The notes below the pieces were generated by a model. That model searched no databases. It was not told the DNA's origin and worked only from the letters and a program-made list of their open reading frames with translations. Below are positions 43,047 to 47,608 of a stretch of DNA of 64,000 nt, one piece after another. How positions within the stretch are numbered: position 1 is the first letter of the stretch; each line of letters begins with the position of its first letter. The translations under genes were made by a program, and so were the position numbers. Source of the DNA: Cyanobium sp. FGCU6 (GTDB lineage: Bacteria; Cyanobacteriota; Cyanobacteriia; PCC-6307; Cyanobiaceae); contig JANWUR010000001.1 in the NCBI GenBank assembly GCA_024958655.1, positions 310,001 to 374,000 on the forward strand, read 5' to 3'.

Positions 43047-44088
43047 GCCGGTGCGCGGCGGCTCCCTCTCGCAGGGCTGCCAGTCGCTGCGGCGGGGGGG
43101 GGTGATCAAGAACGGCCCGCCATTCGGTGGCGATGGATGGGGGTGGCGGCAGGGCCAGGTCGTGGCAGGGACAGCCGATCCCTTCGGCGGCAGAGGCCAC
43201 CTTGGGGTCGTAGCTGAGGGCGGCGCAGGGGCTGCCGCTCTGGGCCGCCAGGATCAGGCCATGCAGGCGCATCGCCAGCACCAGGCCGGCGCCGGCGAAG
43301 GTGGCCATCGCTCCCTCCAGGTCGGGAGCAGGAAGGGCGCGGCTGCGCTCCCGCAGATCGCTCGGCAGCAGCCCGGCGGCGCCAAGCCGCTCGAGCAGGC
43401 CGCAGTCCTGCTCGCCATGGAAGGGCAGCCAGAGCACGGGCCGCTCGGCCTGGCGGGCCAGGGCCGCCACCGCCTCCAGCCAGGGCCGCCAACCCTCCGG
43501 TTCGAGGGCCGCCACCGGCCGCCAGCAGAGCACGATCGGCCCGCCGCTGCCCGTCCAGGCCCGGGGCGCCACAGCCCAGACCGGATCGCTGCCCAGCCGG
43601 CCGTCGATGCCCCAGCTGCGGGCGAGGGCGGCGGAGGCCGGATCGCGCCAGCTGATGGCGGTGGCCATCGCCAGCAGCGAACGCGTCAGCAGGCGGCTGC
43701 GCCGCCGCCGCAGCGGACCGAGCCCCTGCCCCCACAGCAGCACCGGCAGACGCCGCAGGCGGGCCGCGGTGATCAGGGCGCCGTAATACACGAGGCTGAG
43801 GAAGCTGGTGCTGTCCTGCAGCAGGCTGCCGCCGCCGAGCACGAGGGCTTCACAGCCGACCAGCGCCTTCAGCACGGCTGTCAAATGGCGCCGATCCACG
43901 GTGGCCACCGGGAAGGCCGCCTCCACCGCCTGCCGATCGGCGGCGGTGACAACCGGTTCCACACCCGCCGGCAACTGGCTGAGCAGCACCTGCAGAAGGG
44001 CATCATCGCCGAGATTGTGCTCGCCGTAGTACCCGCACAGCAGCACCTTCGGCCGAGGCGACTGCGGCGATGCGGGGCGGGCGATCAC
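43015..44088 (-). CDS. csaB: Polysaccharide pyruvyl transferase (CsaB-like)
   Basis: A 357-residue enzyme of the polysaccharide pyruvyl transferase family, which adds pyruvate ketals to cell-wall polymers so S-layer proteins can bind. It shows LLCGYYGEHNLGDDALLQVLL, EALVLGGGSLLQDSTSFLSLVYYG and LLWGQGLGPL in the first half, and VLAMRLHGLILAAQSGSPCAALSYDPKV in the second. The GT-B-like fold is intact. In cyanobacteria CsaB is widespread even where the S-layer link is unproven. Confidence 0.9.
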   Translation of the reverse strand: MIARPASPQSPRPKVLLCGYYGEHNLGDDALLQVLLSQLPAGVEPVVTAADRQAVEAAFPVATVDRRHLTAVLKALVGCEALVLGGGSLLQDSTSFLSLVYYGALITAARLRRLPVLLWGQGLGPLRRRRSRLLTRSLLAMATAISWRDPASAALARSWGIDGRLGSDPVWAVAPRAWTGSGGPIVLCWRPVAALEPEGWRPWLEAVAALARQAERPVLWLPFHGEQDCGLLERLGAAGLLPSDLRERSRALPAPDLEGAMATFAGAGLVLAMRLHGLILAAQSGSPCAALSYDPKVASAAEGIGCPCHDLALPPPPSIATEWRAVLDHPPPPQRLAALREGAAAHRLTLEPLRRLG

Positions 44089-44167
44089 AGAGGCGGAACA
44101 GATGCGGCGGAGCCTACGGCCCCCCAGCGGCCTCCCTGACTAGATTCAGCCGGCCCAGCCCTCCACC

Positions 44168-44485
44168 ATGCACGCCCTCTCCCTGGCCACCTGGTGGATT
44201 CACATCACCTCGGTGCTCGAGTGGGTGCTGGCGATGGCAGCGGTGGCGGCGTTCGGTCGTCGGCGCGGCGAACCGGCCTGGCGCTGGCTGGCACTGGCGA
44301 TGCTGCCGGCCCTGGTGAGTGCCATGGCGGCCTGCACCTGGCACCTGTTCGATAACAGCGAGGCTCTGCGGGGCCTGGTGGTGCTGCAGGCCGGTTGCAC
44401 CGTCGCCGGCAACCTGGCCCTGGCGGCCGCCACCTTCCATCTGCTGCGTCTGCAGCGTCGCAGCGCCGCAGAGCCCCAGGCATGA
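44168..44485 (+). CDS. DUF2499 membrane protein (Ycf49-like)
   Basis: A 105-residue protein with three membrane helices: ATWWIHITSVLEWVLAMAAV, LALAMLPALVSAMAACTWHLF, and GLVVLQAGCTVAGNLALAAATF. WIHITSVLEW and TWHLFDN are family hallmarks of DUF2499/Ycf49-like proteins, found in cyanobacteria and chloroplasts; function unknown. It overlaps the following DUF3593 gene as ATGA. Confidence 0.85.
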   Translation: MHALSLATWWIHITSVLEWVLAMAAVAAFGRRRGEPAWRWLALAMLPALVSAMAACTWHLFDNSEALRGLVVLQAGCTVAGNLALAAATFHLLRLQRRSAAEPQA

Positions 44486-44808
44486 ACGACGCCCTGCTGA
44501 GCCTGCTGCAACGGCTGGCGGCCTTCGACCCGGCGCCGCTGTTCGTGCTGTCCCTGATCCCCTACCTGGCCTTCCTCTGGTGGGCGCGGCAGGTGCGGGC
44601 CTTCCCGCGGCTGGCCCTGCGCGGCTTCGAACTCACCCTGGTGTTCGTGGCGGCCACGATCGTGGCGGCGGTGATCGCCCAGAACCGCTATGGCCGTCAG
44701 CTGGCCGACGTGGACCCGCTGCACGGGGGCGCCGAGGCCCTGCTCACCCTCAGCAACGTGCTGGTGATGGTGGGCTTCCTCAGCCGCGAACGCGACCCCC
44801 ATCCGTGA
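44482..44808 (+). CDS. DUF3593 membrane protein
   Basis: A 108-residue protein with three helices (LFVLSLIPYLAFLWWARQV, LTLVFVAATIVAAVIAQ, LTLSNVLVMVGFL). It matches the DUF3593 family, which in cyanobacteria is usually next to DUF2499; both also occur as plant chloroplast proteins. The pairing and four-base overlap suggest a small membrane complex. Its own stop overlaps the GTG of the channel gene (GTGA), so three genes are coupled. Confidence 0.82.
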   Translation: MNDALLSLLQRLAAFDPAPLFVLSLIPYLAFLWWARQVRAFPRLALRGFELTLVFVAATIVAAVIAQNRYGRQLADVDPLHGGAEALLTLSNVLVMVGFLSRERDPHP

Positions 44809-45974
44809 GCCGCCCCTGGGCCCTGGTGGTGCTGACTGCCGCAGGGCTCGGCCCGGTTCTGCTGCCGCCCGCGACTGCCACAGCCGTGCCGACAGACACT
44901 CCGGGCGCCGTTCTCCGCGTGGGGGTGGTGGAGGGTTCGCCTCCCTGCAGCGATCGCCGCGATGGTGTCTGGCAGGGACTGGCCCCTGAGCTCTGGAACC
45001 GGATCGCCAGCCGCGAGTCGCTCGCCTTCCGCCTCAGCGCCTGGCCGTCCACCACCGACGTGCTCGAGGCCACCCGCGCGGGGGTGATCGACGTGGCGGT
45101 GGGCTGCATCAACGTGTCGCCCGAGCGGCTGCTGCGCTACCGCTTCTCGCTGCCGTTCCAGGAAGATGGCCTGGCGGTGCTGGTGCTGCGCACCCCCCTC
45201 GATCTGGGGCGGGCCTTCCTTGGTGCCCTGATCGGCCCGGGCCTGCTCCAGCTGCTGGGCGGCTATCTGCTGGCCACGGCCCTGCTCACCGTCCTCACCT
45301 GGCGGGTCGAGCACTACGGCGAGCGTCCCGAAACCCAGCGAAACGGCAGGCTGCGAACCGGCGGCAAGCTGTTCCAGGTGCTGGCGACCGGTCCGGGCGG
45401 CAACGCGATCGTGGAGACCAACCGGGGCAATGTGATCGTGATCGCCGCTTACCTGGTGCGCATCGTCGCCGCCTCCCTTCTGGTGGGCTTCCTCACCGTG
45501 CGCGTGGTGGACGAAACGCAGGGGCGGGCCCGGGGACGGATCCGCGATCTCACCGATCTGGAGGGTCTGCGGGTGGCGGTACGGCGGGGAAGCATCAGCG
45601 AGACCCTGATCCGCGAGCTCAACCGGGCTGCGCCGCCCGGGCGGGCGATCCGGCCGGTGCCGATCGGGACCATCGTCGAGGCCCTGCCGCTGTTGGATCA
45701 GAACCGCGCCGATGCCTTGCTCGGCGACGAGTTGCAGCTCGCCTGGCTGGTGCGCACCGGCCGCTCCGGAGGCGGGTTGCCGCTGCTGGCGCTGCGGGGG
45801 ATCCGGCCGGAATCCCAGGCCTTCGCCTTCGCCCCCTCCCTGCCGGAAGCCACGGCCGAGCGGATCGACCAGGCGATCAGCTCACTGAAACGCAGCGGCG
45901 TGGTGGGCGAGGTGAGGGCGGCCACGATCCAGCCGCCGGCAACCGCAAGGGATGGGGAAGGTGAACAACGGTGA
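44805..45974 (+). CDS. GluR0-type ionotropic glutamate receptor-like channel
   Basis: A 389-residue protein with GluR0 topology. A signal peptide (residues 1-27) leads to ligand lobe S1 (about 34-130, with GSPPCSDRRDGVWQGLAPEL). Helix M1 spans about 138-167, a pore loop about 186-205, M2 about 208-234, and lobe S2 about 245-371 (DLEGLRVAVRRGSISETLIREL, ALLGDELQLAWLV). GluR0 of Synechocystis has TVGYGD at the filter; here the equivalent place reads LATGPGGN. The domain order argues for an amino-acid-gated channel or receptor. GTG at 44805 overlaps the upstream stop. Confidence 0.7.
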   Translation: MSRPWALVVLTAAGLGPVLLPPATATAVPTDTPGAVLRVGVVEGSPPCSDRRDGVWQGLAPELWNRIASRESLAFRLSAWPSTTDVLEATRAGVIDVAVGCINVSPERLLRYRFSLPFQEDGLAVLVLRTPLDLGRAFLGALIGPGLLQLLGGYLLATALLTVLTWRVEHYGERPETQRNGRLRTGGKLFQVLATGPGGNAIVETNRGNVIVIAAYLVRIVAASLLVGFLTVRVVDETQGRARGRIRDLTDLEGLRVAVRRGSISETLIRELNRAAPPGRAIRPVPIGTIVEALPLLDQNRADALLGDELQLAWLVRTGRSGGGLPLLALRGIRPESQAFAFAPSLPEATAERIDQAISSLKRSGVVGEVRAATIQPPATARDGEGEQR

Positions 45975-46030
45975 ACGAGCCGGCTGGCCCATCGCCACTC
46001 CCCGGAAGATGGGGCGTCGGCTCCCGATTC

Positions 46031-46288
46031 ATGATCGCTCCCCTCCTGGCCCTGGCTCCCGCCACCGTCACCTGGTCGCCGAAGGTGGGCCTGGTGATGA
46101 TCGTCTGCAACGTCATCGCCATCGCCATCGGCAAGGCCACCATCCAGAAGCCCAATGAAGGGCTGAAGCTTCCCAGCGCCAACCTCTTCGGCGGCTTCAG
46201 CCACGGCGCCATGCTCGGCACCACCGCCCTCGGCCACATCCTCGGCATGGGCGCCATCCAGGGCCTTGCTTCCCGCGGCGTTCTCTGA
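46031..46288 (+). CDS. psaK: Photosystem I subunit PsaK
   Basis: An 85-residue thylakoid protein. It has two membrane helices, VGLVMIVCNVIAIAIGKATI and ALGHILGMGAIQGLA, joined by the PsaK loop KPNEGLKLPSANLFGGFSHGA. PsaK sits at the edge of photosystem I and helps attach antenna complexes. ATG 46031 gives the normal processed N-terminus (MIAPLLALAPATVTWSP); a GTG at 45971 would overlap the channel gene. It lies 56 bases after the channel gene. Confidence 0.93.
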   Translation: MIAPLLALAPATVTWSPKVGLVMIVCNVIAIAIGKATIQKPNEGLKLPSANLFGGFSHGAMLGTTALGHILGMGAIQGLASRGVL

Positions 46289-46311
46289 TCCAGAGGTCTC
46301 GCACGCTCCTT

Positions 46312-46345
46312 GGCTCACCTTCTCCCTCGCGGGGGAGAGTGAGCC
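46312..46345. terminator. Strong hairpin between convergent psaK and the oxidoreductase gene
   Basis: GGCTCAC (46312-46318) pairs with GTGAGCC (46339-46345), and inside it TCTCCC pairs with GGGAGA around TCGCGG, with a two-base bulge on one side. There is no T-run, but the position between two stops (46288 and 46355) suggests it ends transcription both ways. Confidence 0.55.
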
Positions 46346-46354
46346 GGCGTGCCG

Positions 46355-47608
46355 TCACCTCCAGCCGAGAAGGTAAGGAACGGCTCGCAGTCCATAGCGC
46401 TCGAACCGGTAAGCGAACAGCAGGGCCGAGAGGTCTTCCGCTGTGCAAGTCTCCAGACCCTGCAGCAGGGCGTTGAGGCGCCTGTCGGCGGCAGGGCTGC
46501 GAAGTCCGAGCCAGGTGCGACGGGCCAGACGGCCGCTGAGACTCCAGCGCCATCCCAGGGCCCGGCGCAGATCGGCCGGGTAGCCACGCAACGCATCCGA
46601 TCCGCCGGCTTGATCGAGGGCGCGAAGCAGGAGCGGTGCCAGCACCCGACTGCTGGTGAGGGCATGGCGGATCCCTTCTCCGCCCAGCAGATTGGCGGTG
46701 CTCACCGCATCGCCCAGGGCCAGCAGGCGGCCACGGCGATGGGGCTCCCGCCGGTGGACGCGGCTGCGGATCAGGCCGCCATGGCGATCCAGCACCCGCA
46801 GCGACTGCCGTTGCTCTGCCGTGAACAGTCGCTCCAGCACGGAGCGCAGTTCCGCGGCCAGCGGCCGTTGCGCCCGCCCACCATCCGCCAGACGGCAGAC
46901 ACCGATCTTCAGCCGGCCGGGCTGCATGGGGAAGACCCAGCCGTAGCCCTGCCCCACCCAGTCGCTGCCAAGGCAGAAGGCGAGCTGATCAGCCCAGTCC
47001 TGCCAGAGGTTCGGGGGCGCCTCCACCAGCCACTCGCAGCCCACGCCGCTCACCAGGGGATCCCGGCCGGCCGGTGCCTCACCGATCAGGGCCCGCTGCT
47101 GGCCGGTGGCATCCACCACCCACTCGCTCACAACGTCCAGCACGGCGCCGCTGCGGTCCCGCAGGCGGGTGCGTAAGCCCTGTCCCTCGGGCCTGCAAGC
47201 GATCGCGCGCAGGCCCAGAGTCAGCCGTCCTCCCCACGCCTGGCACTCCTGGACCAACCAGCGACGCAGGGCTGCGAAGTCGAGCACCACACCCATGGTG
47301 CCGCTGCCCCGCCATTGCCGCCGGCGCTCCCCCGGGCCGATCAGCTGCCACTGGCTCCAGCGGGCCGCCGCCACCCGAGCGGGAAGTCCGAAGCGATCCA
47401 TCGTGGCCAGCGGCAAGGCCGCACTGCTGAAGGCCGCGTGGGAGAGATCGGTCAGCTGGTCCACCAGCAGCACATCCACGTCGGCCATCGCCAGCTGACG
47501 AGCCAGGTCGGCACCCGCCGGGCCGGCGCCCACCACCAGCACCCGGCAGTCGAGGCGGGAGGGGAGGGTACAGCTGGGACTGGCGGGAAAGGGGGAGGCC
47601 TCCGGCAA
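46355..47608 (-). CDS. FAD-dependent oxidoreductase, geranylgeranyl-reductase-like
   Basis: A 417-residue flavoprotein of the PHBH/GGR-like class. The N-terminal Rossmann motif is VLVVGAGPAGADLARQLAMADVDVLLVDQ. GYGWVFPMQPGRLKIGV is the GGR-type middle motif, and LALGDAVSTANLLGGEGIRHALTSSRV is the second FAD-binding block. It starts six bases after dxs, the entry enzyme of isoprenoid synthesis, which supports work on an isoprenoid or pigment; however chlP itself is not this length variant, so the substrate remains unknown. Confidence 0.8.
   Translation of the reverse strand: MPEASPFPASPSCTLPSRLDCRVLVVGAGPAGADLARQLAMADVDVLLVDQLTDLSHAAFSSAALPLATMDRFGLPARVAAARWSQWQLIGPGERRRQWRGSGTMGVVLDFAALRRWLVQECQAWGGRLTLGLRAIACRPEGQGLRTRLRDRSGAVLDVVSEWVVDATGQQRALIGEAPAGRDPLVSGVGCEWLVEAPPNLWQDWADQLAFCLGSDWVGQGYGWVFPMQPGRLKIGVCRLADGGRAQRPLAAELRSVLERLFTAEQRQSLRVLDRHGGLIRSRVHRREPHRRGRLLALGDAVSTANLLGGEGIRHALTSSRVLAPLLLRALDQAGGSDALRGYPADLRRALGWRWSLSGRLARRTWLGLRSPAADRRLNALLQGLETCTAEDLSALLFAYRFERYGLRAVPYLLGWR

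Follow-up and report, generated by a model that had tools for sequence, protein, structure and literature searches.

The stretch analysed here, hereafter the window, comprises 64,000 nucleotides of Cyanobium sp. FGCU6 (contig JANWUR010000001.1, positions 310,001 to 374,000) and contains an open reading frame (ORF) that runs from a GTG at 44805 to a TGA at 45974 and encodes 389 residues of a receptor of the ionotropic glutamate receptor (iGluR) type, called pGluR in the following. The N-terminus looks, judged by eye, like a signal peptide, and the Pfam match to SBP_bac_3 (E 8.8e-12) spans residues 37 to 366 and thus crosses a membrane insert. The gene, of which the window's genome holds one copy by protein search as well as by the family profile at E 1e-8, is flanked by the genes of two membrane proteins, DUF2499 and DUF3593, and by psaK (Table 1). 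The coordinates that a first-pass annotation had assigned to the four genes all check, and the ATGA overlap of DUF2499 with DUF3593, the GTGA overlap of DUF3593 with pGluR at 44805 and the 56 bases between the pGluR stop and the psaK ATG at 46031 are confirmed in the sequence. In a profile search of 400 genomes from the window's family, 150 contain a match at E 1e-8, a number that includes K+-type receptors. A hand count of the listing puts the genomes with a strong relative (E 3.1e-82 or better) at 71, the window's own among them, which rules out a local oddity of sequencing or gene calling.

Table 1. Features of pGluR and its neighbours in the window, with the support for each
Feature	Coordinates	Strand	Support
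DUF2499 (Ycf49) membrane protein, first gene of the cluster	44168..44485	+	Pfam PF10693, E 2.2e-34
DUF3593 membrane protein	44482..44808	+	Pfam PF12159, E 1.5e-34; ATGA overlap with DUF2499, GTGA overlap with pGluR
pGluR, iGluR-type receptor, S1-M1-P-M2-S2 order, TGPGGN filter	44805..45974	+	ORF, Pfam, AlphaFold2 (AF2) model, structure and profile matches
S1 half, predicted ligand-binding domain (residues 36-130)	44910..45194	+	AF2 model; VIA-align to 1ii5, Z 28.1 over residues 32-376
Cys48, clade-specific, candidate disulfide with Cys101	44946..44948	+	66/66 clade rows, 0/23 outside rows
Cys101, clade-specific, candidate disulfide with Cys48	45105..45107	+	66/66 clade rows, 0/23 outside rows
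Arg108, aligned with the GluR0 S1 Arg that binds the ligand alpha-carboxylate	45126..45128	+	89/89 rows; role from available part of PMC2950845
M1 helix (residues 145-168)	45237..45308	+	AF2 model
Pore helix (residues 182-195)	45348..45389	+	AF2 model, block pLDDT 92-97; membrane-domain-only model agrees
Filter T195-G-P-G-G-N200	45387..45404	+	53-row clade: G196 53, P197 48, G198 53, N200 48
M2 pore-lining helix (residues 206-240)	45420..45524	+	AF2 model
Arg219, 24 residues past the filter Thr, M2 gating-hinge position	45459..45461	+	Arg 63, His 3 in 66 clade rows; Ser/Gly/Thr/Ala in 23/23 outside rows
S2 half, predicted ligand-binding domain (residues 246-375)	45540..45929	+	AF2 model; VIA-align
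Asp308, aligned with the GluR0 S2 Asp that binds the ligand alpha-amino group	45726..45728	+	60 Asp, 3 Glu, 3 Asn in 66 clade rows; role from available part of PMC2950845
psaK leader element 1, degenerate copy (TGAACAAGTCTTAAG in relatives)	45961..45977	+	Leader alignment, genome pattern scan
psaK leader element 2, CCCGGAAGATGGGGCGTCGGC	46001..46021	+	Leader alignment, genome pattern scan
psaK	46031..46288	+	TIGR03049 119.7 bits (cut-off 67.95); match begins at residue 25 of the GTG-45971 reading

In the AF2 monomer model of the full-length protein, built on an 89-row alignment (A2; mean predicted local distance difference test score (pLDDT) 89.8, predicted template modelling score (pTM) 0.80), the two halves of the ligand-binding domain (LBD) are separated by helices at residues 131-142, 145-168 (M1), 182-195 (the pore helix), 199-202 and 206-240 (M2), with a three-residue coil joining the pore helix to the short helix 199-202. 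These helices, together with the profile alignment to iGluRs, bear out the S1-M1-pore-M2-S2 order of prokaryotic iGluRs that had been proposed for the protein. By VIA-align 2 the top match of the model is the GluR0 ligand core 1ii5 (Z 28.1, 219 residues, root-mean-square deviation 2.0), with near-equal scores for glutamine-binding proteins, which tie with it, and for the Nostoc GluR0 2pyy (Z 27.6). Among the Foldseek matches are iGluR chains, animal ones included, that take in the membrane domain; 7qhb_B, for instance, has a TMq of 0.60 across 385 columns. At the sequence level the family profile has its best match in the PDB in 2pyy (E 2.1e-20), which we take to be a Group 2 member of the prokaryotic iGluRs, and also reaches plant GLR3.4 (E 2.2e-9, positions 63-356) and NR2B (E 6.4e-9, positions 77-354), both through the membrane region.

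Modelled on its own (residues 129-246, 83-row alignment A3; pLDDT 85.0, pTM 0.73), the membrane domain has MlotiK1 as its top Foldseek match (TMq 0.73), 48 of the 50 matches listed are P-loop channel chains by description, and VIA gives Z values up to 10.0 (3beh). The M1-pore helix-filter-M2 fold of tetrameric P-loop channels is consequently present in the predicted monomer, as a likeness of fold only and at weak E-values. As the membrane domain matches P-loop channels, with that proviso, and the profile extends to iGluRs through the membrane region, the outcome named beforehand as fatal to the iGluR assignment, homologues of periplasmic binding proteins with unrelated membrane segments, has not been realised. 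In its domain order, in the GluR0 fold of the LBD and in its two ligand-site residues (Arg in S1, Asp in S2) the protein conforms to a prokaryotic iGluR.

The family was placed on a tree of 89 alignment rows, selected from 122 candidates by omitting near copies by hand; a quick method was used and the program warned of long branches at some deep joins. On one side of a branch with SH-aLRT support of 100 stand 66 of the rows, all of which possess both Cys48 and Cys101. Within these, the 53-row clade of the window carries the filter TGPG[GST]N in 48 rows (five of them with the Ser of SGPGTN as first letter) and TGSGDD or TGEGDA in the other five, which are nested among the GPG rows, while a deeper group of 13 has loops of the MGTGIYK-, LNDGID- and IGPSPL-type. 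The 23 rows outside read TVGYGD or TFGYGD (17), LATQAD/E (4) or LVGGADN (2). A motif common to 48 of 53 rows is neither chance nor local decay, and the alignment of the pore across homologues thus establishes GPG as a family trait.

TGPGGN and TVGYGD align in an ungapped register at equal length, and in both kinds of receptor a conserved Gly follows the filter Thr by 13 residues (Ala in one of the 17 K+ rows) and the M2 hinge follows by 24. The first-pass annotation had read the filter as equal in length to that of GluR0, with the Gly-Tyr-Gly core lost and Asp turned into Asn; equal length, absence of the K+ filter and the Asp to Asn change hold, whereas the loss of the core depends on the alignment, because the window's clade includes five nested rows with TGEGDA or TGSGDD. 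The TVGYGD-type filter that marks the K+-selective Group 1 is replaced by TGPGGN. Gly196, Gly198, Gly208 and Arg219 are invariant in the 53 rows, Pro197, Asn200 and Gln191 are each found in 48 and Arg184 in 49, and in the five exceptional rows Gln191, Pro197 and Asn200 switch together (to Thr, Glu and Ala in four, to Ala, Ser and Asp in one). The position of Arg219 presumably corresponds to KcsA G99, MthK G83 and NaK G87, and the pair four residues before and five after the filter Thr, Gln191-Asn200 in pGluR, to what we take to be E71-D80 of KcsA.

On balance we lean towards the explanation that pGluR is an amino-acid-gated P-loop channel which has lost K+ selectivity and most likely has a weakly selective or anion-preferring conductance. 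A K+ channel in which TGPGGN serves as an unusual K+-selective filter would account for the preserved Thr195 and its spacing to Gly208; it is very improbable, as the ungapped register puts Pro at the first Gly of GYG and Asn in place of Asp, and the net charge of residues 184-204 is +1.67 in GPG rows against -0.24 in K+ rows.

The same segment is at -0.50 in LATQAD rows and at -1.40 in the five acidic rows. Over residues 182-232 the net charge averages +4.60 in GPG rows (3 to 6, n=48) versus +1.47 in K+ rows (-1 to 2, n=17); LATQAD rows average +0.50 and the five acidic ones +1.80, the comparison groups being small (5 acidic, 4 LATQAD-type and 2 GGADN rows). The positive shift of the pore derives from Arg184, Arg207 and the missing filter Asp; the net charge of M2 is nearly equal in GPG and K+ rows, because in the latter the Gly is followed by an Arg, which offsets the deeper Arg219 of the GPG rows. 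The shift fits a pore that disfavours cations without singling it out.

Constraint was assessed as the ratio of non-synonymous to synonymous differences (pN/pS) in 26 independent pairs from the 53-row clade defined by the tree, with bootstrap ranges. It is lowest in M2 at 0.274 (0.163-0.380), followed by pore helix plus filter at 0.352 (0.247-0.452), S1 at 0.381 (0.271-0.494), S2 at 0.461, M1 at 0.462 and the M1-pore loop at 0.688. Mean column entropy is 1.18 in M2, 1.17 in pore helix plus filter, 1.24 in S1, 1.65 in S2, 1.49 in M1, 2.84 in the M1-pore loop and 1.43 in the pore helix without residues 194-200. The letters of M2 and filter are kept at least as well as those of the ligand-binding halves, with overlapping ranges, which speaks against decay, though it is no proof of conduction; a decayed pore is accordingly not favoured.

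The first-pass annotation had left two options, a pore that is non-selective or anion-permeable, or a receptor without a working channel. The premise of both, that the K+ filter is absent, stands, and the second has become the less supported, because M2 and filter show no less constraint than the ligand-binding halves, though the difference is within bootstrap ranges. In this second option, which we consider unlikely while granting it real weight, pGluR would be a ligand-binding receptor with a non-conducting membrane part, M1-P-M2 acting as anchor or as signal relay to a partner, perhaps DUF2499/DUF3593. The missing known cation filter, the Arg at the M2 hinge position, a pore helix that outside the filter is no more constrained than S2, and a place in a cluster of overlapping genes with two uncharacterised membrane proteins agree with it. 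Besides the constraint on filter and M2, two findings disagree: within the clade the filter is exchanged as a unit (TGPGSN, TGSGDD, TGEGDA), and 21 of the 27 loci of a genome-contig scan have no DUF2499, DUF3593 or psaK within the fetched DNA, which starts within 610 bases upstream at three loci (L041, L050, L052) and ends just past the match at another (L053).

With respect to the ligand, the Arg and Asp that align with Arg108 and Asp308 are named as glutamate-binding in the available part of PMC2950845, the Asp being found in 82 of the 89 alignment rows. Most clade rows have Ala or Gly at residue 307, where 19 of the 23 outside rows have Phe or Tyr. Residue 260, a basic position throughout the 53-row clade (48 Arg, 5 Lys) and Val or Ile in 19 of the 23 outside rows, aligns with a lysine of GlnBP that we take to be a ligand contact. 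A Glu- or Gln-like ligand is our best guess from these residues. In one lineage with a TGSGDD filter (L049:4222-7113 and L154) the receptor gene directly follows the glutamine synthetase gene glnA, a hint of a Glu/Gln ligand; a conserved glnA link is rejected, as it is confined to this lineage. The two clade-specific cysteines are located, by alignment with GlnH, in two loops flanking the ligand pocket, and in a larger set of 126 rows they occur together in 83 and are both absent from 43 (one of which has a gap at 48). They probably form a disulfide which fixes or redox-tunes S1.

The similarity of S1 and S2 to GlnH-type binding proteins, and the gene's place after glnA in one lineage, could also reflect a membrane-anchored amino-acid-binding protein that serves an ABC importer and has no receptor channel. 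This is quite improbable: M1-P-M2 interrupts the binding domain, as in iGluRs, the membrane part has a predicted P-loop pore fold, and no part of an ABC transporter was found among the seven neighbours to which the Pfam annotation was confined. Besides DUF2499, DUF3593 and PsaK, these are a metallophosphatase, DXP synthase, an FAD oxidoreductase and a polysaccharide pyruvyl transferase.

If pGluR is an amino-acid-gated channel, its two-lobed periplasmic domain would bind a small Glu- or Gln-like amino acid, Arg108 holding the carboxylate and Asp308 the amine, with the basic residue 260 directed towards the side chain and the putative Cys48-Cys101 disulfide beside the pocket. Closure of the lobes would pull on M1 and M2 and open a tetrameric P-loop pore whose loop would enter from the cytoplasmic side. 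The pore would have been rebuilt from TVGYGD to TGPGGN, with the Gln191-Asn200 pair, Arg219 at the M2 hinge and Arg184 and Arg207 at the loop ends, so that K+ selection is not expected. A more specific form, which we regard as rather doubtful, is a Glu/Gln-gated anion channel with a neutral GPGGN filter and Arg at pore mouth and M2 hinge, disulfide-tuned in the oxidising periplasm or thylakoid lumen and made with PsaK, whose TGEGD sub-lineage would have gone back to cations.

Several observations weigh against the channel reading or its anion form. The Foldseek E-values of the membrane domain are weak, the best being 0.47 and none reaching 0.001. The differences in pN/pS fall inside the bootstrap ranges, and the pore helix without residues 194-200 has a pN/pS of 0.469, no better than S2. 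The charge shift extends beyond the pore, with -0.38 versus -6.18 in S1 and +1.69 versus -2.47 in S2 (GPG versus K+ rows), and is therefore not special to it; the five nested rows with acidic filters keep Arg219, a poor fit with anion selectivity. Position 308 is Glu or Asn in 6 of the 66 clade rows. Finally, some genomes hold broken copies of pGluR and many are without the gene, which is therefore dispensable.

Of the 27 loci of the contig scan, 26 are cyanobacterial by title (Cyanobium, Synechococcus, Aphanothece, Vulcanococcus and metagenome-assembled genomes (MAGs)), and the remaining one (L053), a short partial match with 50% identity in a MAG labelled Acidobacteria, is perhaps a mis-binned cyanobacterial contig. 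One pattern scan of viral contigs found no phage-borne copies. The receptor gene is broken by stops or frame changes at L019/L024/L026 (genome G022), L052 and G160:C19, and is being lost in some lineages. Deeper paralogues of the cysteine clade with other pore loops (LNDGID-, IGPSPL- and MGTGIYK-like) occur at L202, L207 and L212, at L187 and L188, and at L086, L186, L189-L192, L194 and L199; two genomes (G114, G162) have such a paralogue alongside a GPG receptor, which makes mixed tetramers conceivable. Outside the cysteine clade, L205 and L211 form a separate pGluR branch with the filter LVGGADN. In a relocated group (L030, L031, L034, L062, L065, L071), to which the copy of Synechococcus WH 5701 (L031) belongs, the receptor gene is followed by a gene for a DUF389 membrane protein; a conserved DUF389 link is rejected, as it is confined to these six loci.

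The surrounding cluster is far more widespread than the receptor. Among 151 family genomes DUF3593 is found in 136 and psaK in 137, each in 95 of 95 good genomes, and the Pfam model PSI_PSAK confirms psaK of the window (E 3.3e-15). DUF3593 and psaK stand close together on one strand in 135 of the 136 genomes with both, the other having them on two contigs. Four genomes of one genus (G072, G112, G137, G159) have an additional, more distant psaK copy elsewhere; of these copies only that of G137 entered the count, which hence has 138 entries for 137 genomes. The gap between the two genes measures 71-179 bases in 126 genomes (median 104) and 1179-1691 bases in 9, from 6 genera, and all 9 long gaps hold a strong pGluR. 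Of the 151 genomes, 26 have a strong pGluR, and in 16 of these it lies elsewhere and DUF3593 and psaK are adjacent. All four genes are together at 18 of the 33 strong-family loci (L153-L185; one more is cut by a contig end) and at 6 of the 27 contig-scan loci. The link to psaK is thus a lineage-specific insertion of pGluR into a DUF2499-DUF3593-psaK cluster that is near-universal in the family. Mapped on 52 rows of the tree (L181, on a contig of 3075 bases, was omitted), of which 20 have the full order, the state of the cluster shows 6 or more changes. A single old insertion before psaK, with several later relocations or losses, seems a simpler history than independent insertions at one place.

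A two-part element precedes psaK, in the window at 45961-46021. In relatives it consists of TGAACAAGTCTTAAG, some 25 unconserved bases and CCCGGAAGATGGGGCGTCG, the conserved pattern being TGAACAAGTYTTAMG, about 25 nucleotides and GAAGATG. The combined pattern occurs exactly once in each of 38 of the 151 genomes (11 genera) and not at all in a reversed control; all 38 instances are situated 18-40 bases upstream of the psaK match, 7 with pGluR in front and 31 without. Of 46 leaders, 2 lack the motif. The psaK starts were assigned by rule, with a few set too far downstream, and the loci L131 and L174 gave none. In several carriers the stop codon of pGluR falls inside the leader element, and in the window, as at L028 of Cyanobium sp. 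FGCU52, the second half (46001-46021) is kept and the first is degenerate; the window's genome has no exact match. RNA structure is rejected: RNAalifold on 20 sequences, the first row badly aligned, gave 3 pairs at -0.98 kcal/mol, and Rfam matches were sub-threshold only. As the spacing is nearly fixed, a promoter or a protein site is the likelier reading. A promoter and terminator scan of 44000-46500 returned no match and was itself uninformative.

In relatives psaK may thus have its own promoter or leader, so that a receptor 'co-made' with a photosystem I (PSI) subunit, as the first-pass annotation had it, is at most a possibility. Adjacency of pGluR with DUF2499, DUF3593 and psaK on one strand, as in an operon with a PSI gene, is what the sequence contains; the proposed coupling is overstated, given the lineage-specific insertion, and a single transcript is no more than a candidate, because psaK of relatives has a conserved leader of its own. 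As a guess, the window's lineage may have become more dependent on read-through into psaK. Co-regulation with PSI, in which pGluR as a lumenal or periplasmic sensor would adjust PSI through PsaK, draws on its position between DUF3593 and psaK in 9 of the 136 genomes with both and on the complete four-gene loci counted above; we judge it improbable, in view of the 16 of 26 strong-pGluR genomes in which DUF3593 and psaK are adjacent with pGluR elsewhere, and of the 31 of 38 conserved psaK leaders without pGluR in front.

A bacterial clade that lacks the K+ filter, has another filter widely conserved and shows further variants (TGPGxN, TGSGDD, TGEGDA, MGTGIYK, LNDGID, IGPSPL) offers a series for the choice of ions by P-loops. 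pGluR would also give picocyanobacteria a periplasmic amino-acid sensor, encoded beside a PSI gene in some of them. An anion-passing GPG pore, if true, would to our knowledge be the first such case in the iGluR/K+-channel scaffold, and the return of the TGEGD sub-lineage to cations would be a natural selectivity series. As far as searches show, the cysteine clade, the GPG filter with its variants and the position before psaK are new; a literature search by title, not exhaustive, found no description of a GPG filter, the cysteine clade or an insertion at psaK. On the other hand, a non-K+ filter as such had been overrated as a novelty: of 22 channel-type prokaryotic iGluRs 12 have a K+ filter and 10 are already known without one (available part of PMC2950845).

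Among known systems, GluR0 of Synechocystis (slr1257), a Group 1 receptor, is a K+ channel of the plasma membrane whose termini are periplasmic and which has an effect on volume at high KCl (available part of PMC13099474). pGluR shares with it the S1-M1-P-M2-S2 order, the ligand Arg and Asp, the LBD fold and the pore register, and differs in having no TVGYGD, in the TGPG[GST]N filter, in the Arg at the M2 hinge and in the two S1 cysteines. Prokaryotic iGluRs of Group 2, for which we take GluR0 of Nostoc punctiforme (2pyy) as an example, have the same architecture and likewise no recognised K+ filter, and pGluR agrees with the wording of this group in the available part of PMC2950845, the same topology with a P region without recognised filter. 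The cyanobacterial LATQAD/E rows, taken as Group 2-like, are two residues shorter in the alignment, lack Cys48 and Cys101 and fall outside the 66-row clade (SH-aLRT 100) on a tree without the sequences of PMC2950845 itself. With eukaryotic iGluRs (AMPA, NMDA and plant GLR) pGluR has in common the fold of LBD and membrane domain and a non-K+ P-loop; unlike them it has no amino-terminal domain, no third membrane helix after S2 and another filter. The P-loop channels MlotiK1, Kv, KcsA and NaK resemble its predicted membrane domain in fold, whereas pGluR has no GYG or GDG filter and an inverted topology is expected, as in GluR0 (available part of PMC13099474). The closest counterpart of the locus is the picocyanobacterial psaK cluster with the same genes in the same order, DUF2499, which is ycf49 in plastid genomes (plastid-encoded in some algae and of unknown function according to the available parts of PMC3999925 and PMC4603697), DUF3593 and psaK, into which pGluR is inserted between DUF3593 and psaK in the window.

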